Below, piece after piece: positions 3,256 to 63,817 of a DNA stretch of 64,000 nt; the first letter of the stretch is position 1; every line of letters begins with the position of its first letter. The position numbers and the translations under genes were made by a program. The DNA is taken from contig KV419403.1 in the NCBI GenBank assembly GCA_001630475.1, positions 62,001 through 126,000 on the forward strand, in the 5' to 3' direction. The notes under the pieces are model-generated. The model did no database searches. It had not been told where the DNA came from and saw only the letters and a list, made by a program, of their open reading frames with translations. This DNA comes from Sistotremastrum niveocremeum HHB9708. Its lineage: Eukaryota > Basidiomycota > Agaricomycetes > Sistotremastrales > Sistotremastraceae.

Positions 3256-3917
3256 GTCGGAATGGGGAGGAGACGAATTTTTGTGATGCAATGAAGAAAT
3301 ACGAGGTAGCCTGGCCACCCAAAAACTGAAAAATATGACACAGAAGAGATAATGATGAATTCTACAAGAAAGACGAAGTGGCTGAGTGCCGCGTAGAGAC
3401 GGGAGGTGGTTGTTGACAAGATGAGAATTTCAAACTCAGACATCCGGAAAGGTCTTTGAAGCTCTGGCTGGCGAACCCAAATCACAGACGACCGACGTCT
3501 ACTAGTAGCGTGCAACAAATCCGTTGAACGTGAAGAATACCATGACGACATCGTCTTAAGAAGTCCAGAGGGAAGCGACGGGATCAGCAGAGAACGGCTG
3601 GAGCCTTGGGCCTTGCCAGCTGGTCCGTCTTCTAAACACGTCGTTTCGTATCTTCCCTGTGGCTATCCCTTTGCGTGGCCACAATCTTCGTAAATTCATT
3701 GAAGACGTTTTACACCATATCGGACCTCCTCAAGCTTTCACTGATCAAACACAAGCGAATAAAATTCTCAACATCCCCATAAATTCACGCGTTTCTCTTA
3801 AAGTAGTTGCACAAATAGGAACGAATATACATGTGAAAATAGTCAGAGAAGCCAATGCAATCTCGGCATCTAGTCCAGGCACTAATCATCAGATATCAGT
3901 GAGAAGCCTAGATCGAA
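3256..3917. other. Intergenic: Snt2 upstream region and sedolisin 3' flank
   Basis: No gene is supported here. A 99-codon minus-strand frame (3252-3551) overlaps the Snt2 start in another frame and resembles nothing. The stretch presumably holds the Snt2 promoter and 5' leader, and the sedolisin polyadenylation region. Confidence 0.5.
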
Positions 3918-5973
3918 TTACAATCCGACGGCAGTCAATAACTTGGCAAAGTTGGGTGTACCCAGACCAGTAACCTGAAGAATGTATCAGTAAAAATCCA
4001 AATGAACAAGAACAGAGAATACTAACAGGGTCCCATCCTACTGTGGCAGGGAATCCCTGAGTGTTACAGCCTGGGTTCCCACCGCTGGTGACATCGTTAA
4101 GAGCAGAAGCCCCGTTAGAGTACAGAAACGGGTTCAAGAATCCGAGAACGGGTTTGCCAGCAGCGATAAGTCGATCGTTGATCAACGAGATGATGGAGGC
4201 GAAAATGGGAGAGGCACAAGAGGTTCCATCAACACCACCAGTCTCACCGCCGCTGACGATCTGGACGTTGACACCTTGAGCAGCGACATCAGGGAAGCCG
4301 CGTCCACTGGAGTTAAACTTCCTGCTATTGGGGAGACCAGGGGTATCGAGGTAGTGTTCGACGGCATCGGATTGGTAGGATGGCCGAGCAAAGTAGTTGG
4401 AGAATCCACCGGATGAGAAATCGGCAGCGGTTTCAGGAGAAATTCCTTGGGTGGCACCAACAGATGTCATACTGAATGGTAAATATTGGTGTCAGGCGAG
4501 AAACATTGAGACGAGAATGAGCTTACAAGGGACATCCAGATGGGAAAGTAGGGACGAATTTGCTGCATTGTTGAGCCTGACTACCGGAAACACCACCATC
4601 ACCAGAAGCGAAAAGAATAGAGACACCAGCGGCGCCGAGCGTTGAAAAGGCATTGCAAAGGGAGCTAGAAGACACCCGAGATTAGCAAAGTGTTCACTAG
4701 GCATTGAGTGGGAGAAAATTCACTTAGCCTGGGCCGGGGACACAGTGTTCTCATTTTGTCCATAAGAGGTAGTCAAGACCTGAGGACGGACGGCAGCATC
4801 CTCATTCAGAATGAAGTTGACGAGATCGAGGAAGCCATCAAGGTTGCCATCTTGGTTGTTCTCACCGACCGAGATGAAGGTCACAGGGACGCCAGTAGCG
4901 ATGCCGACAGTGTACTGGATATCAAGATTCTATAGGTGACATCGTTAGCGTTCGGGTTTCAAGCCGATTCGACATCGAGATCCTCACAGCTTCAATACCC
5001 GCATCTTGCGGTCCTTGAGGATCTGATCCACCATCAAGGGTTTGGACAGCGAAGGTCGTGGATGAGGGGATGTCGGGCCTGAATTGCTCTAGGAATGCCT
5101 CCAAATCATCTACCTGAGCGAACTGGTTGATGAAGCCGCTGACACCGAGGTTGGCGGTACCAGAGGTGGCTTCGGTGGCTGGTACTCCGTAGATGGCCTG
5201 GATGCAAGTCGGAGTGATGGTGTTGGCGCAAGAAGCGGGGATGGCGCGCTTCCCCAGTCCTCTTGCCTCGAGAGAGGTGGAATTCGTCTTGCTGATGCCG
5301 TGTACGCTGGGAGCACCACCAAACGGATTAGGGAAGCTAGATGATCAAAGATTTGGTCAACTCTCAAGCCTATTGATAAGTCGTAAGATAGGACGCTCAC
5401 GTCACAGTGGGGTGTACGACTTCAACTGCACCCGAGAGTGAAGTGGGAATCGAGTAAGCAAGTGTACGGATGAAGGTCTTGCCGGTTTCAGGGTGAGCAA
5501 ATTGCTGGAAATCAGTGTTGAAGAGCGCGTTTGCCTGGCCAACGGTGGTCTTGATCGTCAGCCAATCACCAGCTACGGAGGTAGAAGCAGCGGTTAGACC
5601 GTTCGCAGCAAGCCAGTCTTTGACAGCGGCGTCAGTCTTAGGTGTTGGCTTGGTATATTCGACAATCTGCGAAGATCACCTCGATTAGTTAAATAATTTT
5701 AGTGGATAAAAATATATTTACCTCGGGCGTACTCATCCATTGGCCGTATGTGGCACTAGAGGGAGTGCTGATCTCGATCAGCTTCTCCTGGAGGCCGATA
5801 ATGTTGTTCTGGACAAGGCTGATACGAAGGGAGACCTCAGTAGTAGGGGAAGGTGTGCCAGCATGAACGAAGCCCTCAGGTGCGCCGTTGATAGATTCGT
5901 GGATGGTGAAAGGTTGGGGAACACCTGCTACCAGGACGGCGAGCAGAGAAACGAAGAACGTTGTACGAAGCAT
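3918..5973 (-). CDS. Sedolisin / tripeptidyl-peptidase-like secreted serine protease (S53)
   Basis: Secreted acid serine peptidase of family S53, as used by mushrooms to digest external protein. The start at 5973 gives a signal peptide (MLRTTFFVSLLAVLVAGVP) followed by the prodomain (SLRISLVQNN, STPSSATYGQWMS, LTIKTTVGQANALF). In the catalytic domain, the Glu/Asp pair of the triad sits in GIEA and NLD, two blocks joined across an intron near 4928-4988. The oxyanion Asp is in FASGDGGVSG. The nucleophile Ser is in DGTSCASP, where most relatives have SGTSASxP. The calcium-site tail is GWDP then VTGLGTPNFAKLLTAVGL and stop at 3920-3918. About seven introns of 50-60 bases; all exons I could join stay in frame. 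It is the intact member of a tandem pair with the copy at 6804-8851. Confidence 0.9.
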
Positions 5974-6803
5974 GGTTTAAGATGGCGTGTTCTACGAGGT
6001 AGAGTCTCAAAAAGCCTTGAGAAGGTGAAGTTCTCTGGCATGTTCAGTCCCCAGAGGCAGGTTTTATACCAGAATTTCGAACGTTCAGCTGAGGCGAACG
6101 AATAGACTCCTGTCCGTAATGAACGGCATATAATAGGCGCATCAGTGCAGGAAGAGAGAGGTTCACAAGGTAAAGGGTGTTTGGTTGATGAGAAGCATTG
6201 GCAAGAATCATTGCGAGATGATTACTGCCAACAGCTGAGGCTCTGAAGGCGTCAGTCGCCCCTAATCGGACCACACGCACACAACATTTCGAGCACCCCC
6301 GGCTCCCTGTCAATTTGTGCTAAAGGGGTATTGGCAGCCCGTATTCCATAGCCAGAATCCCAGTCGATCATCGCGAGATGATACGGGTCCGCGCGAGACG
6401 ATGTCAGGAGTAGAGACAGCTGATAATCGATAATTCCACTCCGTGAGGCGTAGCCATCGCAATCGGGACGCGCCAGCATTTCAATTGAAGGACTTGATTT
6501 CTGTGGTCGCAGCAGATGATGCGTTCGAGATACTACGGTACATGTTGAGAGCTGATCGTGAGGGTCAGCTATAGACAGAATGACGCGCTGAAGTTCGGAC
6601 AAGCGCCTTGGGACTGCAGGAAATGGTACTAGTATCACAGGCGAAGTCAAGGACGAAGGCAACATTAATTTCTCCAGCTCATTTATTTACAGTAAATACA
6701 CAAACATGAACGAATATACTAAGATGATATAAAGGGACAAATGCAACGTCGGCATACAGTCCAAGCATCAAGTATCAGATATCAGCGAAGAACTCAAATC
6801 GGA
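5974..6803. other. Spacer between the tandem sedolisins
   Basis: About 830 bases holding the promoter of the first copy and the 3' flank of the second. An open minus frame at 6252-6665 shows no recognisable domain and I do not call it a gene. Confidence 0.5.
6062..6068 (-). promoter_or_regulatory. TATA box of the intact sedolisin
   Basis: TATAAAA on the minus strand (within GGTATAAAACC), about 90 bases upstream of the start codon at 5973. The same element at a similar distance precedes the tandem copy, so the promoter was duplicated along with the gene. Confidence 0.6.
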
Positions 6804-8851
6804 CTATAACCCGACGGCAGTCAATAACTCGGCAAAGTTGGGTGTCCCGAGACCAGTAACCTGAAGGTTGTATCAGTAAATATCATATGACCAAAGGCAG
6901 AAAGACTTACGGGGTCCCATCCTATCAGTGCAGGGAATCCGGGAGTGTTGCATCCTGGGTTGCTACCGATTATGATATCGTTGAGAGCAGCAGCGCCTTT
7001 AGAATACAAGAAGGGGTTCAAGAATCCGAGAACGGGTTTGCCAGCAGCGACCAGTCGATCATTGATCAACGCGATGATAGAAGCGAACACGGGAGAAGAA
7101 GCTGAGGTTCCAGAGACGGTTCCAACGTCTCCGCCGTTGACGATCACGAAGTTCACGCCTTGAGCAGAAACATCAGGGAAAGCACGTCCGCTGGTGTTGA
7201 ACCTCCCAATTTCGAGGAGGCCAGCAGTGTCGAGATAGGTGTTGACAGCATCGGATTGGTAGGATGGCTGATCAAAGTAGTTGGAGAATCCACCGAAGAG
7301 AAACCGGCAGCGACTTCAGGGGAAAATCCTTGGGTGGCACCAACAGATGTCATACTGATAGTAGAGGTAGATGTCAGGCAGGAAACAATCAGATAAGAAC
7401 GAGCTTACAAGGGACATCCGGATGGGAAAGTAAAGACGAAATTATTACACGATCTTGGTCGAGAACCGGCAACACCGCCATCGCCAGAAGCGAAGAGAAC
7501 AGACATGCCAGCGGCGCCAAGAGAGGCAAACGCATTACAAAGAGAGCTGGACGACACCCGAGATCAGAAGCGCATTCGGAAGGCATTCGATAGATAAAGA
7601 CTCACTTAGCCATGGCCCGGGATACGAAACTCTCGTCCGTGCTATACTAAGAGGTAGTCAAGACCTGAGGACGGGCGGCAGGATCCTCGTTGAGGAGGAA
7701 ATTCGCGAGATCGAGAAAACCTGAAAGCTCGCCATCGCTGCTGTCGCCTCCTACCGAGATGAAGGTGACAGGTACGCCAGTAGCAACGCCGACAGTGTAC
7801 TGGATATCAAGATTCTACAAATGTCATCGTCAAAACGCATTCGGCGCGAATTCGGCATTGAAATTCTCACGGCTTCAAAACCAGCATTTTGCGCTCCTTG
7901 GGGGTTCGATCCACCATCCAGAGTTTGGAGATCAAAGGTCGTAGATGAGGGAATATCAGACCGGAACTCCGTCAGGAAGGACTCCAAATCAGCAGTCTGA
8001 GCGAACTGTCCAATGAATCCGGAGACCCCAAGCTTGACGTCACCGGAGGCGGCATTGGTGGCGGGGACGCCGTAGATAGCTTGGATACAAACTGGGACGG
8101 TGATGTGGGCGCAAGCTGCAGGAATGGCGCGCTTGCTTATATCTCTCCTTTCAAGAGAGGTAAGCTCCCTCTTGCCAATAGCCTGCACACTGGGCGGACC
8201 ACTGATGGGATTGGGGAATCTGGGTAATTACAGTCTCGATCAGAAATGGAACCCCTGCGCAAGACGTGCTGCTTACGTCACAGTAGGATGGACCACTTCA
8301 ACTGCACCCGAGAGTGAAGCGGGAATGGACTAAGCAAGCGTACGAATGAAGGTTTTGCCAGTGTCAGAGTGATTGAACTGTTGGAACTCGGTGTTGAAAA
8401 GACTGTTTGCCTGACCAACGGTGGTCTTGATCGTCAGCCAGTCGCCAGCTACGGAGGTGCTGGCAGCGGTTAGACCATTCGCGGCAAGCCAGTCTTTGAC
8501 AGCAGCGTCAGCCTGAGGTGATGGCTTGGTAATTCCAGCGATCTGTGAGGGTCAAGCCGATTAGTTTAATGAAATTGGATGCATAAAAAGCCGATTAACC
8601 TCTGACGTGCTCATCCATTGGCCATAAGTGGCACTGGAGGGAGTGCTGATCTCAATGAGCTTCTCCTGGAGGCCAACGATGTTGTTCTGGACGAGGCCGA
8701 TACGGAGCGAGAGCTCAGTAGTGGAGGAGGGAGTTCCAGCGTGAACGAAACCCTGAGGTACGCTCTCAATAGTTTCGTGGACGATGAACGGTTGGGGAGC
8801 ACCCGCAGCCAGGGAGGCGAGCAGAGAAACGAAGAACAATGTGCGGGCCAT
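6804..8851 (-). pseudogene. Sedolisin (S53) tandem copy, disabled
   Basis: This copy aligns end to end with the neighbouring sedolisin, with the same exon order: signal peptide MARTLFFVSLLASLAAGAP, SLRIGLVQNN, QTLDGGSNPQGAQNAG, MTSVGATQG, SGTSASSPVFAS, and terminal VTGLGTPNFAELLTAVGL with stop at 6806-6804. At least three lesions are visible against the intact copy. A TAG lies at 8330-8332 where the partner has Tyr (FIRTLA-stop-SIP). An extra in-frame TAG lies at 7647-7649 after QVLTTS. A one-base deletion near 7291-7297 shifts the frame after AGFSS. Ironically this copy keeps the canonical SGTS serine motif. High identity and few lesions point to fairly recent inactivation. Sequencing error could explain one lesion but hardly all three. 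Confidence 0.85.
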
Positions 8852-8852
8852 G

Positions 8853-10614
8853 GCGTGAGATGAAAATCGACGTAGACTAGATTCTCTAATAGCCTTGGGA
8901 AGGTGGATGTTCTGGGATGGTGTCCCTCCAGAGAAAATGGCAGGGTTTTATACCAAAATTGTGGATGCTGAGTGGACGAACAACGCAACGAGCTGCTTCC
9001 GTTCTCCGTGGACGTTGAGCGTAGGAGAGAGGCGCGTATTGACTCAGAAGCACGGCATCTCATGGCAAGTCTCATGATTAGTGGCCGAGCCTCCCGATGC
9101 TCAACAGTCGCATTGAACGAAAACTTCGAGAACCTCTGCCAGAGCGAGCGACAAGATATGAAGAAACATGATCCTTCGGCCGTGACAATCGGGTCGTTCT
9201 AGCATCCATTCGGATTCTGATAATCGCAACAGGCTTGTTGCTTCACACCGACACCACGGCAAAATTGAAGGACCAGAGAGTTGACGAGAGACAGACGCTA
9301 GCCTGAGACGCGCAGAGTCAGGCTCAAACGATTTTGACGCTTCCAGAGCATCGCAACCAAACGGAAACCGAGTGAGAACTTCAGGTCGTTCTTAATCGAA
9401 GCGATCAATGTCTGAAAGAATGACAGGATGGCAGTCTGAAACATCGAAGCCAGGCGAGACGAGGCGTAGATGAAACAGCTAAGATACCCCTCACAAGGTA
9501 CCGACAGGGTGTCACAGCGTGACAAGCGCCCAGGACCCTGACGAAATCCGGCGAGATTCTAAGAATTTCTAACCTAACCCTAGGCTAAAATAATATATAT
9601 ATTAATTTGTGGCCGCTCATGAGACAGTAGCTCATGACGAGAGGTCTTTGGAGTTGACATTGCTGCATGTGGCGCTTGTTCTGAGCTCGGGCAGCTGAGA
9701 GCTCCTCTCTGCCAACTTCTCATACGTGGGAGGCTGCTGCAAAGGGAAACTCCGTCTATCCGGGAGTTGGAACTCCGCCTTAAGTCCGTCCTATGGCCGA
9801 TATAGCCGAAAACCCCTGCCGAAATTTCTCGGGGTGAAAATTTGAAAACGGCTGGAATTGACCAAATAACCATGGTAGATGCTGAGTTGAGGGCCGGATA
9901 ACTTTCAGGGTACTACTTCATGAATATTGCATATAATAAAATTTTGAAACCAGCGAAGTGAAGCTTCAATCATCCCGCAACTATCCCTGGTTTCAGATTT
10001 GGTTACTATGAAGTTGTGGTGGACGAGTATGCCGATGAGTTGACCGTCACGCTGGCTTATGTAACACCCTGTCGGTTCCTGACGACGCGTATCTTACTCG
10101 GCGAAGGCTCGGAAAAACTTGCGCCGTCGGCTCCGTCACTAGCCCGACCACTTGAACAAAATTCAACAAATGCAACACTCGGTACTGTATTAGTAGTATA
10201 ATCCGCACTGCTACCGTATGCCGACCAGAGTATCAACAGCATTATTTCTGATAGCAGACCACCACATGATTGTTGGTTCGACGAGAAAGGCGTGAGCTGG
10301 TTTAGGAGCCTATGCCTGGTATCCAGGGATCCGGATAGACTTTGGCGTACATTGTATGTCTGCCAGTGGCCGATATTCATTGTCCGTGCTGTCGTTCAAA
10401 GTCTGACCTTATATTGTCGAGTGGCAATCGCAACCAGGTATTTGAGCAAAGACATGTTGTCCATTTAGATTTTGAAGGCTGGACGTCGATGACGTATTGT
10501 GAGTCTTGTAACACCCGCTGGCCTGCCTTCACAGATTACTTATATTGTTCTGAATATGACACTTCGATGTGACTTCTCGAGGAGACTGAGCTAGACGCCA
10601 TGAACATCAACAGC
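8853..10614. other. Gene-poor interval with a weak plus-strand coding candidate
   Basis: After the sedolisin promoter (to about 9000) nothing convincing appears until 9985. From about 9985 to 10200 a plus-strand frame reads FGYYEVVVDEYADELTVTLA and continues to a stop. From about 10208 to 10477 another open frame holds CWFDEKGVSWFRSL and RDPDRLWRTLYV. These look protein-like, but I cannot join them into a gene with a start codon or name a family. They may be a gene relic. Confidence 0.25.
8946..8952 (-). promoter_or_regulatory. TATA box of the disabled sedolisin copy
   Basis: TATAAAA on the minus strand about 95 bases upstream of the 8851 start, matching the arrangement upstream of the intact copy. 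The core promoter seems to have survived even though the coding sequence is broken. Confidence 0.5.
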
Positions 10615-14940: not shown

Positions 14941-17900
14941 TTATTGAGTGCACTGAGAGTAGTCTATGGGAGCGTGGCTTAATATCGACCGTCGATCTAG
15001 AAATGAATTTGACATACATGGATTGCCAACAGTGCAAGTCCACCCCGCAGCACAGACTGTTGGGCCGGTATATCCAGCACCTGCACGTAGTAAAGTGAGT
15101 TTCATACAGAACCCACACCTGAATGGGATCGTACCTCCACATTGACCATATGGCGTTTGAGTGGGACCGGCAGTCGAGGAGGTTTTCGTCGAAGACGAGC
15201 TGGTACTTGTCGTTTTCGTGCTAGAGCTGCTGCTGGTCGTGGTCGTGGACTTGGTAGAGCTTGTGGAGCTGGTCGTGGTCGACTTGGTCGAAGAAGTGGT
15301 GGTGGTGGAAGTCGTAGTGCTGGTCGACTTGGTAGAAGACGAGGTTGTAGTGGTTGAACTGGTGCTCTTTGAAGTGCTCGTGGTGGTGCTCGTTGTCGAG
15401 GTACTTGTGGAAGAGACAGATACGGGAGGCGCAGAGCCTGAGATATCGCCGTAGAAGATTCCTCTTCCATTGGTGCCAACATAGACGCTATAAGACGTCT
15501 TAGAAAAGGTTATCTGATGAGTTGCAAGATAGCCTTACCGTCCGTAAATTCTTGGGTCGCCGGTCAATACATTCGCTGATGCTGAGCCGAAGCCGTGGGC
15601 GGCATCATTGATTTGCACCCAGTTCAATCCCTGGTCATCAGAACGCCAGTAGGCTACCAACCCTCCGATCGATGCGGCAGCAAAGACTGCTGGATATCCA
15701 CCCGTTGTCTTTGGGGCCCCAAGAGCGATCGCCCACGCTTCTGTGATTCCCGAGATGGCAGTAAAGGAAGCGCCCGAGTTTGTGGTATGGAACAAGCCTT
15801 TGCGCAGTGTAAGACCGGGGAGGCTCAATGAGAGCCGACTGCTTACCGGCGTCAGACGAGACCCACACATCTCCGGAGATACTGGGGTGTACCGCGATTT
15901 TCACAGGATACTGCGAAGTACCAAGCTTGCTAGGAGAGGTGAACGAAACACCGTTGTTTGTCGAGATATAGAAGGAAGAACCGGAAGCTGCATACTGGGA
16001 GCAATCTCAGTGGAAAATTATGCAAAGGCAAGAGAATCACTGACGAAGATCGAGTTGTTGACCTTATCAGAGGCTATGACCGAGCCAGAGGGAATAGAGA
16101 CGGGGGTAAATGCGTTGGTATAACGAGACACTAAAACGCCATTCGAGCTAGAAGACCACAAGACGGTATCCGCGCTGGCTGAAAGAGCAATATGGCCACC
16201 AGTGACATTGTCTGCAGCGCCATAATCTTGGTTCCTGACATGCGACATGAGTTAGAGCCATTATTCTTGACGACGTGCACGTACCAGGTCGCTCCAGAAT
16301 TCGTACTCAAAGCAACTTGCTTTCCGGTGGAGGAGTCTCCAGTGCCGCAACGGACAATGTTTGTGGGAAGCTGCCCGGCAAAATCGATATCGGAGGTGGT
16401 GGCCCTGGTGAAAAACGAGTTATACAGCTGTGACAATACGGGCGACATATAGAGGCTTACCAAGTAGGGTTCACGAAGCCGGTAGAGGGGGCCGTCGTCA
16501 ACGAATTGTGGACGAATCCTATAGCCAAATTGAGCCGGGTTATTTGCTTAATATCTAAAACTGACCTCCAACGTCGCCGACGGCACTGAGCAATGATGGA
16601 CCAACTGGGGGCGAAATGAGACCTTGAATCGCGGTCTCCTCGACTCCATCAGCGAGCGATTTTATAGTGACGTTGTGGACGGTATCCCACTTGAGCAAAT
16701 CGTGACCACCGTAAATGGTCTCGCCGGTACCATAGAGCCAGTGGTTGGAATCGAAGGGATCGATGGATAGACCTTCGATCATCCAGCCTACAAGCTTCGC
16801 AGAAACATCTTGACTACCCAAAGGCCCGCCGATCCACGGAGCCAGCGAAGTATCGTAAGAGAAGTAGCGAGCGAGGGTGGGGTAACTCGTCCATTCCCAG
16901 ATCTCGCTCCAAGTCTTACCACCATCCGTGCTGCGGAAGATGTTGGCGTCGGGCCACCACTCGTTGAGGGCAGCTACCATGACAGTTCCAGGCTTCTGAA
17001 GATCGACAGCCAAACCGCCGAATCCGTAGTAGTTGTCGGTGACGGCTTGAGGAGGTGTGATAGTCGCCCAAGTTCCGGCGGTGATGTTGTACTTCGAAAC
17101 ATACCCCAGAGTGCCGTCGTAAGGGCCTGCTCCATTGGAGTAGGAGACGTAGAGAGACTGTTCCGCGGGGGAGAGGACACCCTTGTGAGGCATGAAGGTG
17201 CTGTTTTGGCCTGCTACGGCGCTCCAGGTGCTGCCACCATCATTGGTAACAAAGACGTTGCTGGAGCCAAGATTCGCAACCCCGACGAAGATACGGCTAG
17301 TACCAGCTGTTGTCTTTGCAGAAGGATCGAATGTGACCCAACTGAGGCCGATAATGTCGCTGTTGTAGCCTAAAAATATGTTATGAGCATGGAAGAGTTG
17401 CGTCAAATACGAACGAACCGGTGGTATCTGTGGGGTCCGGGATATATGTCCCGACCGACGGGAAGCTCTTGACCTGAGTCCAGGTAGCCCCAGCATCAGC
17501 CGACTTCCAAAGGCCGTGTCCGCTACGAGCTCCGAAGAACAATATTTTGTTGTTGTTGGGATCAACAGCCAATCGCTGCACGCGCAGTTCCGTTAGAGAC
17601 CGACTACACCGACAGGACTGTGAACATACCTCTCCCATTCCACGGCCGGGCATGTTCCCGCCAACCTAACATGTTCAGTGAGTGGGTATCGAGTTGCGAG
17701 AGAGAAGTAAAATTACCTTGAAAGGCAACTGAGTTGCAGTCCAGGTGGAACCGTAGTCAGTGGACTTCAAGATGCTTCCGTTATTGGGATCGTAGCTGTT
17801 GGTGTACATTCCAACTGCCTTTCATCAATCAAATGAGACAGTATCACCGCGGCTATATTAATCAGACTTACCACATAGAGGTTGCTCGGCGTAACGGGGT

Positions 17901-52163: not shown

Positions 52164-52672
52164 TAGTGTTCCAAGGTCCAGTCACGACTGGACTTTTGAC
52201 CTCCGGAGGGTGCGACTGGCAACTGCCAGTCCGGTTGCCGTCCAAAATTTGGCATGACTGGCAACTGCGACTGCGGTTGCGGTCCAGCGACCGGTCACGG
52301 CTGCGACCAGTTGCGCAACCGGTCATGGCCACTTTTTCCAGTCACAACTGGTCTTTTATCAATATTTTAATCATTATTGTATTATATATACTGTATATAC
52401 ACCTCATATGATGTGGTACATGCCTATAGACACCAATATATACTGTATATGTCACTCAAAACTCTCATTTGAGACCCAAAATACCCTCTGGGTACCATGG
52501 TTGGGGACCCTTAAGGGTCCTCGGTTGCGACCACGGTCACGACCGGTCATGACTGCGGTTGCCGGTTGCCTGATTTTCCAGAAACCTAGGCAACCGGCAA
52601 CTGCAGTCCGGTCACGGTCCGGTCGCGACTGCCGGTTGCCACCAGTCACGGCAACTGGACCTTGGAACACTA
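52164..52672. mobile_element. hAT-like MITE, family 1, copy a (509 bp)
   Basis: Non-autonomous element with 19-base perfect terminal inverted repeats (TAGTGTTCCAAGGTCCAGT), flanked by an 8-base direct duplication ATAATATC at 52156-52163 and 52673-52680. TIRs starting TA and an 8-base duplication fit the hAT superfamily. Subterminal arrays of CAACTGC / CAGTCACGACTGG-type short repeats occur on both sides in opposite orientation, and the core (GACCCTTAAGGGTCCT) is palindromic. No coding capacity. Related to the copy at 62285-62799. Confidence 0.85.
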
Positions 52673-53071: not shown

Positions 53072-53359
53072 GGTTCAGGAGATTAAGGAGAGTTTGTTAT
53101 GTTATAAGGGACGGGTGCAAATATTTTCGGGGGAGCGTACCAGTCGCGTTTCTTGAAAGTGGGACAAGGACTTCGAGCTTTTATAGACGTATCTCGAGCG
53201 GAGGTCTACAGACCGATTTAGTATTTCGTGTTCCCTCTTCGGCGACTGGGGCCGACGACAACCTTCAAACTCCGACACCCATTTTTGGTTCGCGCCGCCA
53301 CCACGCCCGCCGCCGCGCCGCCATTGACTCCTTCATCCCGACTCCCCTTCATGATCACC

Positions 53360-53938
53360 CACCTATAGGTCCCACATACTAATACCATACTAGACCATAC
53401 TGTATATACGTATAATGTAGTCTCATTAGATAGGTTAGTGAATATACCATGATACCATGGTTTATACCGCAAATACCTTGCATTTCAAAACCACTAAGTC
53501 CCTCCGGAAAATAGAATATAATATTCAATATCCTAATAGACTCTCGGTCCTCGGCCTTAGGCCCTTTCAGGCACACGGCACGTCCTCGTCATCGGATCGA
53601 CCTCGCTTAGCTCAACATCGCTCCGTGCCGGGCGTTGAGTCTCGGCGCGAACCCTGAGGCCCCAACGCCTTCCGCCCCTTCGCTTACGTGCCGCCGCTTG
53701 ATCCCGCCGGCTATCCGCCCCACATCCCGACTCCGCCCCGCCTATCGTCCTCGTCGTTGCCGACAGCGAGCACGCTCCCCCGCCCATTCCTCCATCAAAC
53801 CCCCAACATATATATATTGCCGGACACCTACAGATGCGTACTATCCGAATATGCACTCTATTTTTGAATAATACTTTTCTATACAGGCGCGACCCTACTT
53901 CAACATGCTGTACACAACATCACGTGCTCTCGCTTCGG
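53360..53938 (+). repeat. KDZ left terminal inverted repeat (579 bp)
   Basis: Pairs with 63231-63809 in inverse orientation; identity ends abruptly after CTCTCGCTTCGG. The outer 100 bases are AT-rich. An inner GC-rich part carries mirrored open frames in both repeats, which are not genes. The inner edge of the right copy lies only 39 bases upstream of the transposase ATG, so that repeat probably holds its promoter. Confidence 0.93.
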
Positions 53939-54147
53939 CAGTTGAGATCTCGTCGTTTGGCGTGTTCAGCGTTGCTCAGTCGTTGCTCAGTCGTCTATCG
54001 TAGTATAGGCATATCTCAGGAGTAGATGGAGCAATGTATTCAATAGTCAAATAGAATACATTCGAAAAAAGCGAAAGAAGCAAAGAAAAACGAACACGCA
54101 CGCGAAGGCAGCGAATGAGCGGGAGGTCAGGCATCGTCCTCGTTCTC

Positions 54148-55763
54148 CTACGCATCCTCCTCCTCCTCTTCGTCCTCCTCCTCCTCCGCATCTTCCTCTT
54201 CCTCCGCATCCTCCTCTTCCTCTTCCTCTTCCTCCGCATCCTCCTCTTCCTCTTCCTCTTCCTCTTCCTCCGCATCCTCCCCCTCTTCCTCTTCCTCCTC
54301 CTCCTCCTCCTCCTCCTCCTCCTCCTCCGCTCTCTTCCTCTTCGTTCCCCTCGTCGTCCTCTTCTTCTTCTCGACCTCTCCCGTCTCCTCAACATCCACC
54401 GCGCCACCGTCGACTGCCTTACGCTTCTTTGTCGCAGGACCTTTCGACTGACCTTTATCCGACCGTACCTTCCTCGGCGGTTTGTCGACAGTCGAACCGT
54501 CGTCTTCTGAGGTGAGTCGTGCCTTGACGGATTCGATTTCGGCGGGAGACAATCGCTCCCAACGAATGGTGGGGGGATCAGCGGTGAGGCCGGTGAGGAC
54601 GGTGCGAAGTTGGGGGATGCTGAGTTCGTGGGGGTTGAACTTGAGTGAAGGCGGCCACGTGAGTCGAACACCTTGATCGACTTCGATCTTCGAGCGATAC
54701 TTCTTCCACTCCATAGACGCCACTTTACCGCCTGTTACCTTTTCTGTATAATCATTAGCGTCTGAGTGAGCGATTAGAATTCGAAACGTACCGAGACCGT
54801 TGCGAACAAGACGAGCGACCTCCTTCTTGAGCTCGACACGCCGCATGTTTGAGTTCTGGACAAGATCTGCAGAACGATGTAATGAGTCTTAGAAGTTATA
54901 ATGAAAATTCGTATACGCACTTCGAAGATTCGCGATCGCCCACCCTTCCACTCTCATACACAACTGCTCCCACTGTAAGTTCAATACCCCTTCAAAATAC
55001 TCCCGGATGCGAGGATGAATGTAGTAAACCGGACCATTGATGTGTGAAACATCGGTCCGCACGGTGAGAACGATGGAGGCGGTATCGCAACGTTGATCGA
55101 GATCGGACAGCTACGAACTTAATCAAAAAAGAAGACTGAGACTAAAATGTATTGACACTTACCTCCTTTTCAACACGCTTCAACGTGCTGAATACGTCCG
55201 CTTTCCTCCATTTCTCAATCGACCGACTCCCTCTCATCTTGTTCTCCCGACGTGATGCCAAGATCTCCTTCATCTCCTCCATCTCGTCGGCAGGGATGTC
55301 TTTCGCGCATGAAGCATCTTCGGCAACTTCTCGAAGATGCTCCAAGCGCTTGCGCTCGTCATCAGAGGCGTCTGAGACAAATTTAGCAAGACTCTTGTTT
55401 TAGTAAGTGAAGGTATAACTCACCGTCAGGAATAACATGCGAGCGCATGTGGATCATCGCGTTCTTGCGATTAATACGCCTGGTCGTCATGACGTGGCCG
55501 CCGAGAGAGAGAACGATGGTCCGCATCTTCTTGTACTTCAGACCGTGTGTAATAGCCAGGGCAGCAATCTTCTCATTGAGATCCACGAGAAGAACGTCGA
55601 CATCTTTCTTCATGGCTTCCCACTTTTGAGCACGTGCTTCGGCTTGAGCTTTGCGATTGACATTCTTCAAGTTCTTGGAGCCTTTTTTTCGAGATGACTT
55701 CCTGGTTGGCTGCTTCGCTGCCAGAGTTTGGAGATGAGCGTGAGTGATCTCAGCGACACTCAT
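54148..55763 (-). CDS. KDZ-element companion gene A (basic N-terminus, very acidic C-terminal tail)
   Basis: Start MSVAEITHAHLQTLAAKQPT at a true ATG (55763), followed by a Lys/Arg-rich stretch (RKSSRKKGSKNLKNVNRKAQ), QKWEAMKKDVDVLLVDLNEK and VMTTRRINRKNAMIHMRSHV. Further exons give KRLEHLREVAEDASCAKDIP, VRTDVSHINGPVYYIHPRIR and RRVELKKEVARLVRNGLG. A conserved-looking block follows (MEWKKYRSKIEVDQGVRLTW with PP, LKFNPHELSIPQLRTVLTGL, IRWERLSPAEIESVKARL). It resembles a Trp-Pro block I remember from proteins common in agaricomycetes, but this is weak recall, not a match. The tail holds a basic patch (GTKRKRA), then about 60 mostly Glu residues encoded by a GAG/GAA tract (54150-54330). About 480 residues, five exons. 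Probably nuclear and DNA- or chromatin-associated (inference). Confidence 0.72.
54150..54330 (-). repeat. Glu-coding trinucleotide tract
   Basis: Imperfect GAG/GAA/GAT/GCG repeats on the minus strand that encode the acidic tail of companion gene A. Prone to length change by slippage. The plus-strand reading of this tract gives a long Leu/Phe frame that is only a shadow. Confidence 0.8.
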
Positions 55764-56003
55764 CGGTTGACGCGTCCTCAGTCTGAGTGTGAAAAATCGG
55801 TTGTACACTTTTCAAATTCAAACTACGTTACTAGGTAACATGTCACGTGAATCATGTTCAAGCTGCTCAATTACATAATCTATCTATCCAAGTTCAACAG
55901 CATGACGAAATAAAGAGCATAGGCATAGAAAGAGACAGGCATAGACATAAGGCATAAGACATAAGATATAAGACATAAAAGAAACAGATCAGACATCACA
56001 ATA

Positions 56004-57394
56004 TCAAAAATATCGTTGATGCTGCGAGACTTGCGAAGTATTTTGAAACCCTCCCGGCGCGACATACAAATCGTCCTCGTCTTCGTCGTCAAGAACGTAA
56101 GGGTTGGACGACGAAGTACTCGATGTCAATGTTGAGACATCAGACGGTTCCCCTCTCCGAACGCCGTGCCATACGGTTTGCACTTGCGTCACCGTGTACG
56201 GTTCGTCGTCGTCGCCGTCTTGATGATGAGCCTGAGCGGCGACTCGCTGGCGAGAAGGTCGTGGCGCAAATGGAGGGGGGAGGGAGGGAGGAGGGAGAGG
56301 CGGCTGAGATGACCGATTGGAAGAGGGAGCATTGCGAGACTGAAAGATGGAACGTGCCGGCGCACGCTCAGGAGAAAGGGGAACGGCAGGAGGACGGGAT
56401 CGGTCGACTTGGCTTCTAGAAGGAAGCGCTTGTTGGCGATGAGGGAGGGGAGAGGGGCCAGGAGCGAATTTCATCTCCTCGAGTGAGATGTTGGCCGCTT
56501 CTTCGTTGATTGAGAGGCCGGCGAACCCGAAGTGATCGTTTTCGTGCTTGGTGACGCGTGTAGGAGAAGTCGGTGGAGCATGCGAAGGGGTAGGATGATC
56601 AATGCGAGAGAAGCTCACGTCGGGAGGGGGAGGAAGGCGAGGGAAGAGGGGCTCTGACTGAGCCCGCGAGGACACTGGGGGAGGGGGAGACTTGGGAGTC
56701 CTGTTGCCGGGCGGTGGACGGAGAGGGCGAATGGTGGGGAGGGGACTCTTTTTGTGGGAAGGGACAGCACAAGTGAGGTCGACTTTCATATTTTTCTGTC
56801 ATACTTTCAGCACATTTCTGTATGGAACAGAAAAATAGACTTACTCGAATGGCCGGAGAAAACCCAACGCGCTTCCAAGTGATCATCGCTTGATCATATA
56901 TGAGCGCCGCTATGTCCTCTACTACGCGGTCCATATAGTCCTGTATGACGCGGTTGTTGCGAAACTGGAGGGGCAGGCGAGGCTTGACGCATTCTTTGAC
57001 CTCTTCGAACGACTTCGGGCTGCCAACCGGAACGAAGGTGACTGTGAACACCGCTGTATCTTCGAAGACTGCTTTTGCGTCAATCTGTGAGTCATCAGGA
57101 AATCAAATGAGCGACAAATGCGACAAGCCCGAAGAATCCTTCACTTACCCAGTCCTCAAGAATGGCCGCGCTTTCTCGCACATGCCATTCACGATCTACA
57201 GTCTTCCCGATATAGGCTTCATGGACCGCTTGAGATAGGTCCAGATCACGGGTCGCATCACTCATGCCAGAAAAGTTGCAGTGGATGAGCGTGCCGTTCT
57301 GTTCATGGACGGTGGGATCCGAAAGGGGGTCGGCATAGTAAGTTGACAGCAGAGAACGGGAGGACCAGCTGTCTTTTTGAGCTTTGGGAGGCAT
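56004..57394 (-). CDS. KDZ-element companion gene B (unrecognised, Pro/Ser-rich C-terminus)
   Basis: Start MPPKAQKDSWSSRSLLSTYY at a true ATG. Exon 1 holds THxNFSG-like GTLIHCNFSGMSDATRDLDL and VHEAYIGKTVDREWHVRESA. An intron ends just before IDAKAVFEDTAVFTVTFVPV; this exon continues SPKSFEEVKECVKPRLPLQF and MDRVVEDIAALIYDQAMITW with KRVGFSP. A second intron precedes KNMKVDLTCAVPSHKKSPLP and a long Pro/Ser-rich region (LPPPPDVSFSRIDHPTPSHA, RSSQPPLPPPSLPPPFAPRP). The end is acidic then Gln-rich (DDEDEDDLYVAPGGFQNT), stop at 56006-56004. About 420 residues. No family recognised; no cysteine clusters, no transmembrane segments. Same strand as the transposase and inside the inverted repeats, so it travels with the element. 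Confidence 0.7.
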
Positions 57395-57969
57395 ATCAGA
57401 TGACGAAGAAGCACGAGCGAGAGCGATTATGCGTCGAACAGTTGGTGGGAGCAGACGAACAAGAGCGTGACATGTTGAAAATGTCACGCTCGGGAAGCAT
57501 GAGGCGCCCGCCCAGATAGGAAAGAAGAGATAAGATGCAGACAGATTGAGCATTTATGACATGAACATTGATACAGTAGAGCATCTGGCTCGTTTTACAA
57601 GCACTAGCAATACCCAAGACCACATCGTGACGATCAGGAAAAATATTTTTTTTATTCGACTTGATATTGGTCGGTGGGCTTCAAACCGCGAGGACAACAC
57701 GAGACTTTCCAATGCAGACTTAAGACAAGTCGTGGCTAGGGTCTCAACTCACCGATTCGGTTCAGTGAGGTAATAGACATTGTATCACTACCATTTCATC
57801 GTGATATGACCCTTTCAGCTCAATACGACCTGGGCCCTTTCGAACCACATGATGTTCGACTTCTGCTTTCGCATGTCTTCAAAGGTCATTTGACCCTCAC
57901 GATGGTGAGGGCCTTTCCTTATTGGTAGCTAGGATTAGAGAGGAAAACGACATTTGTATTTGTCTTCAA
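57395..57969. other. Spacer between companion gene B and the transposase gene
   Basis: About 575 bases containing the presumed promoter of gene B and the transposase 3' end. No further gene is supported. Confidence 0.5.
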
Positions 57970-60900
57970 TTAGCCATATACAATCTCTTGCACTATCACG
58001 TCTACGCCATCCGCTTCGAGTTCGTCGCCGGAGGCATCCTCTTCGGGCTCGTCCTCATCCCCCGCCCTGACCGGTGACATCCTACTACTCGCATCGGCCG
58101 TCTCCCTATTCCCCATTCCAGTCCGAACCCCTATTGTCACGTCTCCGCTGAAACCGTCGAGTGCTTCGATGTCGAGAAGTCGATCGCTGTGGATTGTGTT
58201 AGCAGCCCCAAATCGCTTGATATGCTGAAGTAGTTGATAGGCGAGTTCGGGGTTGGAATCCTTCATCGTCCTGTACTGGTCTGCGTAGAGCTCCTAACGG
58301 TTCGGCTAGCCGAACCGAACCGGCGGTTTTATCGGTTCGGATGCCGGTTAAGTTTGGACGAGAAGGTACGTTCTGAACCGGCGGTTTGGAACCGCTGCTA
58401 ACCGCGGCTATTCGCGGTTTGCGGGACACCACCACCAGGACGTCTGGGTCAGTCAAGCTTGCTCTATGCGTCGTCTACGCGTCCTCACGCCTCTTCCTAC
58501 GCTATTCCTTTCCTATCCTCGCCACGATCTTCGATGGACTGCATTGTCACAATTGAACCAAACATTTTCCGTGAGTGTTGTTAGTTGATTGGGGTGCCAT
58601 TCTGACGTGCATCCATCCGAATTGTCTCAGGTCTATGCTAGTCGTCGGTCACTAACGCAAGAACAAAATCTTTGAACTCGGAAGTGCCATATCGCCTTGA
58701 GAATCCGGAGCAGAGTGGGGCGTTGGGGCATTGTGCGTGGCTCGGGTCAAAGGTGCGTGACTCCTACACTATTCGTTATCACGTACTCATCGTAGAGCCA
58801 ATTCTTTGAGTAAGCCCGCAACGACCTATATGATACTCTGTCCCTCAAACACACATTCGCTTTAATTAACCGACCCTGTCCTAATCCCGTCGGCTTCCCG
58901 ACTGCATCGTCCCCCTGGCACGCGCCACCCCGCTCTCCCTCGTCCTTCCAGACCTACGCAGGACCACGGCCCCATCGATGTCTCTGCATCTCGTCAATGC
59001 TTCCAGAACAACACAGGCCTTCAACAGTCACTTAAGCTCTGTCACCGAGACACAAGTTGCCGAAACCCACCCTTGTCAAACGACTTTTCATCCGGTCCGT
59101 TCGTGAAGTTCTCTGGCTATCGTTTTCATGTTCTCGTCCTACCATTCACGCTCCCCGTCATCTATCGAGTATGTACAAACCTCAGTACCTGCCAACGCTT
59201 GCCAGCACCTCGTTCCGTACCAAGTCGGCAGCCTGTCCTTGCTTAGTCAGACTACGTCGACATTGGGTGCAGATGCAAATGAGATTCCAGAGAGTGAAGG
59301 AACATCAGAAACGATGTATTGGCGTATATATAATGTTCTCTGTACACTGAAATGCATGCTGTCTTAGCTCATCGTATATATATAATCGTGTACCTGCAAA
59401 CCGCGGTTAACAGCGAATATTCGCGGTTTCAAACCGATCGGATCGGATCTGCCGTTTGGCCGTCGGTTTTCCTCGGTTTTCGCAACCGATCCGATCCGAT
59501 CCGAACCGTTAGGAGCTCTAGGTCTGCGAGAAAGGCCTCTTCTTCCACGATGTACGTCTTCAAGCGCCGATATTCGATGTTCAGGCGCTTAACTTCTTCT
59601 CGTGCTCGTTCGAGTTTGTAATGAAGTCTTGAAGCCTCGCGAACCGAGGGCTTTGTCCATGGTTTCTTGAGAATGCCGCGTCGACTGAGACGAAGAATGT
59701 CGAATTCGCCAATGTAAGCGCATTCCATGATTTCTTGTGCATCGAATGTTGGACGAGGGGGGACGAAGTCGGAAGCAAGGGAGTTGTACTGTTCGAGAGC
59801 GGTTTTGATAGCTTGTTGGCGTGTAGTCAAGGCCTTGCTGATGTGTTGACGGAGCTTATAGCCTTCATGCAATGATTAGAAACCTCTTCGCAGAGTAGAC
59901 TAGTTTATGAGCGGCGTACCTGTTCCTGCTTGCCCCTGCCTTGCCAATTCAAATATCCGCGACACTACCAGCGACTCCAGACGGTCCAACGCCTCCAGAA
60001 ACTCCTCTTCCCTATGCAGAGCTGCCCCTTCCTTCCATTCCTTCGACCCCGGCTTCCATCGTTCGCTGATCTCCAACTTCTCTTCCAGCTCTTCCGCCGC
60101 CCCCTGAAGGGTCAAGAACGCGTCTTGACCCTTCACCCACGCATTTCCGATCTCTAAAACCGCAGCTTCGTCGGCCGATTTCTTCTTTGTCTTCTTGAAT
60201 TTGCCACCGGATGTTGACTTGAGCTTTCGGGATGCGGCCTTGTATTTCGTACTTTTCTGTAATCAGTCTTACAAGTATAAAACAAAAACTTTGGAAACTC
60301 ACTCGGCTTCTCGAAGCTTGACCAGTGTGCGGAAGTACGTTACCCGTAAATCGACCGCAAGATCGTCGTCGTCGTCACGATTGAGGTAATCACTCTCCTC
60401 CTTCAGCCAAATATCGAATTGCGCCGTGTCGGTGATCTGAGCGTGAGCCATGGCGTCGGCTAGGAGTGAGGGGTGGGTGTTGAGAATGGCGATCGCATCT
60501 TTGTAGCGACGGAGGATGAACTGGCCTTCAAACGGTATATGTCAGTAGAGAAATTGAGTAAAATAACCAAGACTCACTGCTTTCGATATACCTCTCCTCA
60601 TTCCAGTTTCGAAAGTATCGGTAAATCAGTTGCTGACGGTGGAAACGGGAGGCAAGACGTGTGCAACGGGCAACGGCGTTAGATTGAGAGAACACGTGCT
60701 CACAGCCTTCGAAATTCTCTAATCCGGCCCCTTTGACATAAAGCGGACTCCAATCGATCCCGCAGCTCCGGGCATGGCCTCCACCGTGGAATAATCCAAC
60801 GACGAATCGGGTGAGAGCGTTCATCAGACGAGGGCCGAGAATTCGACTGTCGTGAGCGCTCTGCGAAACTCCGCACCCGATATCGTACCCGATCAGAATG

Positions 60901-63191
60901 GGCCCTGGAAGTAAATCCAGGAGCTCATTCAGGACAGCGAAAGGATACTTAAACCTGCAATAGATAGCATTGTAAAAATATGTTAATATAGAGGATTCAC
61001 TGTGTGACACTCACTTCTCGCCGCTCTCGACCATATCGCAAAACGCTAGCGCAGCTTCGTGCCGACAAGATGCTAGGAACAGGCCGGTCTCACTAAATCC
61101 GCCCTTACCCTTCTTTTTGGAATCGTCCGCTAAGTTCTTCCATCGGTCTGGACACGGTGATGGCTTTTTAGGGATTTCCTGATCATTCTATAGAACTTAT
61201 CAACGATAATATACCCAAATAGAGCCATGGTTACCACATTTCCCACCACCGGTTCCTTGGTCGGTTCCTTTCCCTTCCCCTTCGCTTTCGACTTCAAATC
61301 ATCTTCGAACACGTCAACAGTTTCCCTGTCAAGATATATCGGATCATATATCTGCCGAGAATCCGTTCTTTCGATGGATTCCCTTTCTCCGGCTTCGTTG
61401 GGTTCCTTCGCTAATCGCTTCATCCTCGCTAGCGAATTATTTCCATCTATAGCGATTTCTGTGCCGAAAGTCAGCTCAGGCTCATCTCGAAGAACGTAGG
61501 AACACGGTATGCATGCATGCCGGATGTTCCAATACTTGTCTGTTCGTCCTAGCGCTGACTGCATCCGCTGTTCGATTCGGCGTTGAAGTTCGAGGTAGGT
61601 ATCGATGGCGACGGAGAATTGATTGCGGTAAGACGGACGGAACGCGGTCTGCTCGAAGTAAACGTAGGGTAGTAGTAGTAGGACAAATGAAGACTTACGC
61701 AATTCATATAACATAGTGTCTTGACGAAAGCTTGGATGCTAAGTTGCGGACATCGATTAGTGAGCGCGACGAAATATTGTAAGACACGGAATGATATTCC
61801 GTATGCTGGATTGTCGGGGGAGGTGGCCATGAATCCATAGCGTGCCATGAGGACTACGGAGTTCATGTCTGGATCGCTCGAGTCTTCAGGGAAAATGACT
61901 TGTTTCGCGCCTACAGCATGTACGATTGTGAGAACGAATGCATGATACGATATGGAGTAAAGACGCACCAAATAGCTGTATAACCCTCGATCCACGTCCA
62001 TCGTCGTCTTCCGCTATCTCCAATCCGATCGTGTCGTCAATGTTCGTACTACTTCGCGACCAGTGAAGGTACGCGTCCGTTAGCGGTTCGAAAATCCTCC
62101 GCCAAGCTTGATTCTGGCGTTCAGTGCGATCGCGTCGATCTCGATTATCTTGCCGTTTATAGCTATGAGTTCAAGACATCAAAGAATGTCAGAAGAAGAA
62201 GAAGAGCGATCAATTAGTAGTACGCACTGGGTTTCAATCGATTGAAGTCCAAGCACTTCGTGAACCATTCTTGCCGCTTCCGCCTAGGGTTTTAAGGTCC
62301 AGTCATGACTGGACCTTGGCCCTTTTTTCTCATGACCGGCAACTGCCGGTCCGGTTGCGGACCCTATTTTTGCATGACTGGCAGCTGCAACTGGTTGCAG
62401 GGTCTAACAACCAGTCACAAAAAGACCAGTTGCCTGACCAGTCATGGGCAGCAACTGAGGTCATAACTGGTATAAACCACTATTTTATTCATTTATATAT
62501 TGTTTTTGGGTCTTATCAGTGGTCATATAGTGTCTAGTAATACTTAATAACACTATATAATGCAATATATGATGAAAACAAGGGTATAAAGACCCACTTG
62601 AGACCCAAAATACCCTGTGACCACTCTGTTTGGGGACCCTTAAGGGTCCTCAGTTGCAACCACGGTTGCGACTGGTTACAACTGCAGTTGCCAGTTGCCT
62701 AATCTTCAGAAATCCAAAAGACTGCAACTGCAGGTCCAGTCACAACCTGACTGCAACTGCGGTTTTTTGCAGTCACATGGACTGGACCTTAAAACCCTAC
62801 TTCCGCCGACCCATCCGTCTCAAGGTCCTCCCAGTCTTCTTCGTGATCTGCACCTCCTATTCCCATATCCATCTCGTAATCCATCGTAGCTCCGTCAGCA
62901 TCCGTCGGGACAACCTGGTTCTCGCGAATGATCTCCCTTTCGCTCTGAGTACTTTCTGCGAGAATCAATCGAGTCAGTAGCATAGATAGTATAGAATGAC
63001 AATCTAAAAGAATGAAACATACATTTGAGGAGATCAGCGCGAGCTCGGCGTGAGCTCGCGAAGGCGGCTTGCAGCACCTTTGGCGTAAAGACTTGCTGCT
63101 TGGTCCGAACGGCAGTCCCATGGGTTGACAAAGATGGGGTACTCCCCCTTACGAGTGTTGCTCGACTCTTCTTGATTCGAGTAGGACCCAT
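57970..63191 (-). CDS. KDZ-family DDE transposase, interrupted by two hAT-like insertions
   Basis: Start MGPTRIKKSRATLVRGSTPS, then STHGTAVRTKQQVFTPKVLQ, a leader common in KDZ proteins. A Cys block near 61500 reads NIRHACIPCSYVLRDEPEL. The DDE core is visible: first Asp in EIAIDGNNSLARMKR, second in ILIGYDIGCGVSQS, a conserved GLFHGGGHARSCGIDWSPLY, and the Glu in NFEGCEHVFSQSNAVARCTR. The C-terminus is helical (EEFLEALDRLESLVVSRIFE, LHYKLERAREEVKRLNIEYR) and ends EADGVDVIVQEIVYG with TAA at 57972-57970. About ten exons, roughly 1,100 residues. Insertions at 62285-62799 (after DGSAE) and 58286-59520 (after EEAFLAD) interrupt exons; in each case the flanks left by removing the element plus one duplication are in one frame, so the gene was open before each hit. 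Now probably inactive unless the inserts are spliced out. Confidence 0.88.
58286..59520. mobile_element. hAT-like non-autonomous element, family 2 (1,235 bp)
   Basis: Perfect 20-base TIRs (TAGAGCTCCTAACGGTTCGG) and an 8-base duplication GGTCTGCG at 58278-58285 and 59521-59528. Subterminal regions are packed with CGGTTCGG / AACCGGCGGTTT / AACCGATCCGATCC motifs in opposite orientation at the two ends. The interior (about 58450-59390) has short plus-strand frames (MSLHLVNASRTTQAFNSHLS) but no transposase motif. Sits in the last coding part of the KDZ transposase. Confidence 0.86.
62285..62799. mobile_element. hAT-like MITE, family 1, copy b (515 bp)
   Basis: TIRs of 20 bases (TAGGGTTTTAAGGTCCAGTC) with an 8-base duplication CTTCCGCC at 62277-62284 and 62800-62807. 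It shares with copy a (52164-52672) the AAGGTCCAGT inner TIR, the AACTGC/CAGTTGC subterminal repeats, GAGACCCAAAATACCCT and the palindromic GACCCTTAAGGGTCCT core. Inserted in an early exon of the KDZ transposase. No coding capacity. Confidence 0.88.
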
Positions 63192-63230
63192 TGGTCGATG
63201 TGGAGGGCAGGGGACAGCGAGCGTAGAGAA

Positions 63231-63809
63231 CCGAAGCGAGAGCACGTGATGTTGTGTACAGCATGTTGAAGTAGGGTCGCGCCTGTATAGAAAAGTATTA
63301 TTCAAAAATAGAGTGCATATTCGGATAGTACGCATCTGTAGGTGTCCGGCAATATATATATGTTGGGGGTTTGATGGAGGAATGGGCGGGGGAGCGTGCT
63401 CGCTGTCGGCAACGACGAGGACGATAGGCGGGGCGGAGTCGGGATGTGGGGCGGATAGCCGGCGGGATCAAGCGGCGGCACGTAAGCGAAGGGGCGGAAG
63501 GCGTTGGGGCCTCAGGGTTCGCGCCGAGACTCAACGCCCGGCACGGAGCGATGTTGAGCTAAGCGAGGTCGATCCGATGACGAGGACGTGCCGTGTGCCT
63601 GAAAGGGCCTAAGGCCGAGGACCGAGAGTCTATTAGGATATTGAATATTATATTCTATTTTCCGGAGGGACTTAGTGGTTTTGAAATGCAAGGTATTTGC
63701 GGTATAAACCATGGTATCATGGTATATTCACTAACCTATCTAATGAGACTACATTATACGTATATACAGTATGGTCTAGTATGGTATTAGTATGTGGGAC
63801 CTATAGGTG
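63231..63809 (-). repeat. KDZ right terminal inverted repeat (579 bp)
   Basis: Inverse copy of 53360-53938 with no difference in the stretches I compared. Its inner edge lies 39 bases upstream of the transposase ATG, so transposase transcription very likely starts inside it. Confidence 0.93.
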
Positions 63810-63817
63810 TGATCACC

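Follow-up and report, generated by a model that had tools for sequence, protein, structure and literature searches.

The segment at 53360–63809 of the 64 kb window, the whole stretch of DNA analyzed here, is very probably a KDZ-superfamily DNA transposon of full length whose ends are Zisupton-like. It arrived by an 8-bp-staggered insertion, has been interrupted twice, and is probably non-autonomous. The element measures 10,450 bp, of which 9,292 bp lie between its terminal repeats (Table 1). It is a well-preserved KDZ element and opens no new class, and it supplies base-exact ends, a target duplication and a gene content for a KDZ element of what seems to be a mushroom-type fungus. Short introns, a CBM_1 domain and the KDZ content suggest that the host, a filamentous fungus, is probably a wood-decay basidiomycete.

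Table 1. Features of the KDZ element, in window coordinates.
Feature	Position	Strand	Basis
Left target-site duplication, TGATCACC	53352..53359	.	Sequence comparison of flanks
Left terminal inverted repeat, 579 bp, starts CACCTATAGG	53360..53938	+	579/579 identical to right repeat
Gene C (model), 5 exons, 469 aa, Lys/Arg-rich, acidic Glu tract at end	54148..55763	-	Open frame, splice sites
Gene B (model), 3 exons, 425 aa, Pro-rich middle	56004..57394	-	Open frame, splice sites
Transposase 3' part, 104 aa, acidic, through stop codon, severed by the 1,235-bp insert	57970..58285	-	Gene model
Nested non-autonomous hAT-like element, 1,235 bp, 20-bp perfect TIR TAGAGCTCCTAACGGTTCGG, in transposase exon	58286..59520	.	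TIR + TSD
Transposase middle block, 9 exons, holds PF18758 and C-terminal half of CxC1-like domain (below cut-off)	59521..62284	-	Model, Pfam
Nested MITE, 515 bp, 20-bp perfect TIR TAGGGTTTTAAGGTCCAGTC, in transposase exon	62285..62799	.	TIR + TSD
Transposase 5' part, candidate ATG 63191, N-terminus provisional	62800..63191	-	Hand-joined gene model
Right terminal inverted repeat, 579 bp, finishes CCTATAGGTG	63231..63809	-	Inverted-repeat search + direct comparison
Right target-site duplication, TGATCACC	63810..63817	.	Sequence comparison of flanks

Terminal repeats and target-site duplication

When the left terminal inverted repeat (TIR) was compared with the reverse complement of the right one, all 579 positions were identical, and an independent inverted-repeat search recovered the same pair, 100% complementary, with 9,292 nt separating the arms. 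On either side, the identity was lost at the adjoining base (inner, CAGTTGAG versus TTCTCTAC; outer, C versus A). The 8-bp target-site duplication (TSD) that abuts the repeats is exact. Its sequence occurs twice in the window, counting both strands, both times at the element ends, and the flanks, compared at lengths from 6 to 11, matched at 8 only. The original prediction had placed both ends to the base, next to an 8-base duplication, and had found the repeats identical wherever they were compared; both statements were borne out, the second over the full length of the arms. In our judgment rather than by calculation, chance would not produce an inverted repeat that is perfect over 579 bases and stops exactly at an 8-base duplication.

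From the absence of differences over 579 positions, the divergence between the arms is below about 0.52% at the 95% level (rule of three).

The repeat has a distinct composition of its own. In the left arm, TpA/ApT was 1.0 and (CpA+TpG)/(ApC+GpT) was 0.91, whereas the 50 kb upstream gave 0.66 and 1.18; the element interior, with a TpA/ApT of 0.66, equals the upstream sequence in this ratio. The values for the repeat would rank as RIP-like by customary thresholds; despite these indices its CpG content is high (observed/expected 1.34), and neither this ratio nor the G+C content of 0.51 is lowered.

After the flanks had been joined into an empty site, one of the six frames ran through the junction without a stop for 149 aa. 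With a right flank of just 183 bp, this frame does not show that a host gene was disrupted by the insertion. The 22-base repeat end gave no matches in viral contigs, an unlikely place for copies.

Transposase, nested insertions and companion genes

All three gene models between the repeats (the transposase, B and C) lie on the minus strand. The spliced transposase gene matched the Pfam KDZ family (PF18758) with an E-value of 3.6e-62 and a score of 210.3 bits (cut-off 26.6) over profile positions 5–217 of 217, which bears out the predicted KDZ identity. In the middle block, eight GT..AG introns of 50–65 bp link the nine exons into 772 stop-free codons, the final two of which are already read from the edge of the 1,235-bp insert. 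This block contains the motifs IDGNNS, GYDIGC and NFEGCE, with residues D222, D370 and E428 spaced 147 and 57 residues apart, which we take to be the catalytic triad of the KDZ transposase.

The CxC1 profile matched the middle block at positions 49–96 of 105 only, with 19.8 bits (cut-off 26.9), and CxC3 reached 14.9 bits (cut-off 26.6). Up to residue 136 the block contains no cysteine. Since the CxC1 match falls below its cut-off and this region is free of cysteines, the cysteine cluster usual beside KDZ cores appears to be missing from the modelled transposase or unrecognised in it. A search of PDB sequences with the transposase core gave no matches at E-values up to 1. With a 126-aa core, 29 pattern-matching stretches were found in viral contigs, none of them a relative; among genome contigs there were 78 such stretches and one candidate relative (L001, 5001–5189). 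This candidate was dropped: the GYDIGCGV common to both was taken as chance, and its ORF presumably encodes a bacterial protein like the RNA ligase RtcB.

The exons were joined by hand so that the frames stay open. One intron had five acceptors to choose from, of which four gave 4 or 8 stops; the sole stop-free one was kept. Of the acceptors in the middle block, three (TTGAAG, GAAAAG and ATGAAG) depart from the common YAG, and a branch-point-like motif was present in 9 of the 14 introns checked and absent from the other 5. None of 500 base shuffles was open for any of the three joined models, a lenient control, as the joins had been chosen to be open. At the 5' end, where the candidate ATG lies 39 bp inward of the right repeat, the best acceptor for the first intron (63022–62956) led to a stop at the junction, as did, by inspection, the next one, while the unspliced frame is open across this region. 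The N-terminus of the transposase is therefore provisional.

Two insertions separate the three parts of the transposase gene. The 1,235-bp insert has the ends TAGAGCTCCTAACGG.. and is flanked by the TSD GGTCTGCG at 58278–58285 and 59521–59528; the 515-bp insert has the ends TAGGGTTTTAAGG.. and the TSD CTTCCGCC at 62277–62284 and 62800–62807. Followed from the transposase exons into the inserts, the reading frame runs for 3 residues of the 515-bp insert and for 30 of the 1,235-bp insert before it meets a stop. The KDZ core is thus complete and the gene is broken on both sides of it. This result divides the earlier description of a complete element with its full gene content: it holds for both ends and for the KDZ core, but not for the transposase exons, which are split by two inserts with in-frame stops.

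Both inserts have the form of hAT elements, with 8-bp TSDs and short perfect TIRs starting with TAG; 8-bp TSDs are usual for hAT elements in the available part of a published survey (PMC12730594). In Pfam scans of four ORFs (two in the 1,235-bp insert, one overlapping the 515-bp insert and one overlapping the outer relative of the latter), there was no credible match to a hAT transposase. The inserts resemble hAT non-autonomous elements and MITEs in their TSDs, in their TIRs and in the lack of a coding match in the scanned ORFs, whereas no transposase or parent element was found for them, and the hAT assignment is by form only. The relative is a 509-bp MITE outside the KDZ element, at 52164–52672, with the TIR TAGTGTTCCAAGGT and the 8-bp duplication ATAATATC. 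It is 68% identical to the 515-bp insert over 532 aligned columns, and the two are related.

Because its transposase is interrupted by the two inserts, this copy is probably non-autonomous and movable only by a transposase made elsewhere. A shortened protein carrying the KDZ core could nevertheless start within the middle block, and the inserts could be removed by splicing.

In the models for genes B and C the frame runs uninterrupted from ATG to stop, and we call them genes solely from this openness and their splice sites. A Pfam scan of the two models gave no credible match. Weak matches in the Pfam scans made here, among them BDV_P10, Sorting_nexin, FliX, PilN_bio_d and DcaP (E-values 0.06–0.43), were rejected as falling below cut-off. 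For gene C, a 165-aa part gave no matches among PDB sequences at E-values up to 1, and one pattern-matching stretch in viral contigs, which was not a relative. The element thus offers two companion gene models without a known family match in the searches made. The C-terminal part of gene C preceding the acidic tail may resemble a large, uncharacterised protein family that abounds in Agaricomycetes; if this resemblance is real, that family may be transposon-borne. The acidic C-terminus itself is encoded by a 6/30-bp tandem array at 54137–54340, the length of which is likely to vary between copies. There were no Rfam matches in the window.

Order of events and age

Judged by its anatomy and by the published Cryptococcus elements KDZ1–3, this is a cut-and-paste element. 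By analogy with the family, a transposase of the KDZ DDE type would attach to the long inverted repeats and excise the element, which would then be pasted into a staggered target cut, giving rise to the 8-bp duplications. The duplication here shows arrival at TGATCACC by such an event. Two non-autonomous hAT-like elements entered the transposase exons, each making its own 8-bp duplication. These insertions postdate the origin of the KDZ element; entry before its arrival at the present site and entry after it both fit the data. Likewise, the absence of differences between the arms fits either a young or a homogenised insertion, and the two inner inserts show that the copy is not pristine.

One possible, though rather unlikely, history is that a defective copy already bearing the hAT-like inserts was moved here in trans, with KDZ transposase supplied from another source. 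Arrival with the inserts aboard would explain both the identical repeats and the damaged gene, and the lack of any difference between the arms despite two internal insertions agrees with it. The CpG observed/expected ratio points the same way: it is 0.27 in the 515-bp insert and 1.27 in the adjoining transposase block, so that the insert and the element do not seem to have aged together in one place. This low ratio suggests past methylation of the MITE while the surrounding element was spared. MITEs may, however, come in already poor in CpG, although the relative at 52164–52672 has a ratio of 0.86, and movement in trans is not required by the evidence, since two quick insertions after a recent arrival would fit equally well. 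The nested insertions provide a test case for whether damaged KDZ copies move in trans.

Long inverted repeats are able to convert each other, and an old insertion might have had its arms kept identical by gene conversion between them. The two inner insertions and the unsettled first intron suggest some decay, which speaks for this reading. We nevertheless consider such a history improbable: the 772-codon middle block was modelled free of stops, the models of genes B and C contain no premature stop, and the flanking duplication is also perfect, though conversion between the arms need not protect the flanks. An assembly artefact, in which one arm was copied and flipped, would account for the perfect 579-bp identity, but it is hardly credible, as it would scarcely yield arms that stop exactly at matching 8-bp duplications on the outside and at differing sequence on the inside, with a KDZ gene in between.

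Known KDZ elements and the remainder of the window

The view in the original prediction that KDZ elements are known mainly through their transposase is outdated: in the available parts of two published accounts, elements with defined ends and TSDs have already been described, and they move under laboratory conditions (PMC12810828, PMC12730594). As described in the first of these, Cryptococcus KDZ1 is about 11 kb long, with 241-bp TIRs, 8-bp TSDs and a KDZ+CxC1 transposase, and is mobile. KDZ2 (about 9.2 kb, 139-bp TIRs) and KDZ3 (about 10 kb, 169-bp TIRs) of Cryptococcus neoformans have TSDs of 4–8 bp, and the movement of KDZ1–3 was seen as reporter-gene insertions with 4–8-bp duplications (PMC12810828). 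Further KDZ insertions in Cryptococcus are mentioned in the portion available of another report (PMC12510652).

Judged by the same partial account (PMC12810828), the combination seen in fungal KDZ elements, TIRs with a target duplication of 8 bp (4–8 bp), is also found here. The C. neoformans elements KDZ1–3 and the present one are alike in being fungal DNA transposons of about 9.2–11 kb with TIRs, TSDs of 8 bp (KDZ1) or 4–8 bp, and a KDZ transposase. They differ in the TIRs, which measure 241, 139 and 169 bp in KDZ1–3 but 579 bp here, more than twice the reported range of 139–241 bp (PMC12810828); in the CxC1 domain, which KDZ1–3 carry and which is represented here by a weak, sub-threshold half; and in mobility, the Cryptococcus elements being mobile and the present copy interrupted twice. 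By the available descriptions of KDZ1–3, the two extra genes may be a further distinction. No KDZ element with a 579-bp TIR was found in the literature search, a weak absence, as the results were mostly at listing level.

Among the other groups, 8-bp TSDs are given for Zisupton and for one Dileera family, and TIRs for Zisupton, in the part available of the survey (PMC12730594); in the corresponding part of a nematode study, Zisupton had terminal inverted repeats and no duplication was found (PMC9297572). The present element shares the 8-bp TSD and the KDZ transposase with Zisupton and Dileera, and the TIRs with Zisupton (PMC12730594). With Kyakuja it shares CA..TG element ends and the KDZ transposase, but according to the same excerpt TIRs are absent from two Kyakuja families of Laccaria, and their TSDs measure 7 bp, in contrast to the 579-bp TIR and the 8-bp TSD here (PMC12730594). 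By form alone (TIRs and an 8-bp TSD), the element therefore fits Zisupton, with Dileera also possible, and is unlike those two Kyakuja families as far as they are described there. Some KDZ families bear a TET/JBP gene in the accessible text (PMC12730594), whereas Pfam found no TET/JBP domain in our three gene models or in the part of the element's other small ORFs that was scanned.

Very long repeats of 579 bp, a transposase that may lack the usual cysteine cluster, and two accessory proteins that may travel with the element (the Pro-rich B and the basic, acidic-tailed C) might mark a distinct KDZ lineage, a suggestion we make tentatively and regard as doubtful. If so, B and C might assist the element, for example in DNA binding or at the level of chromatin.

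Elsewhere in the window, two duplicated stretches at 3798–6076 and 6687–8960 are 76% identical over 2.3 kb. Their ORFs presumably encode sedolisin-type proteases; two pieces of these ORFs that were scanned had no Pfam match. The region 14941–17592 probably encodes a secreted glycoside hydrolase, its BNR repeat scoring below cut-off, and the adjacent ORF has a Ser/Thr linker and a CBM_1 domain. The presence of this cellulose-binding domain is in keeping with a wood-decay fungus.
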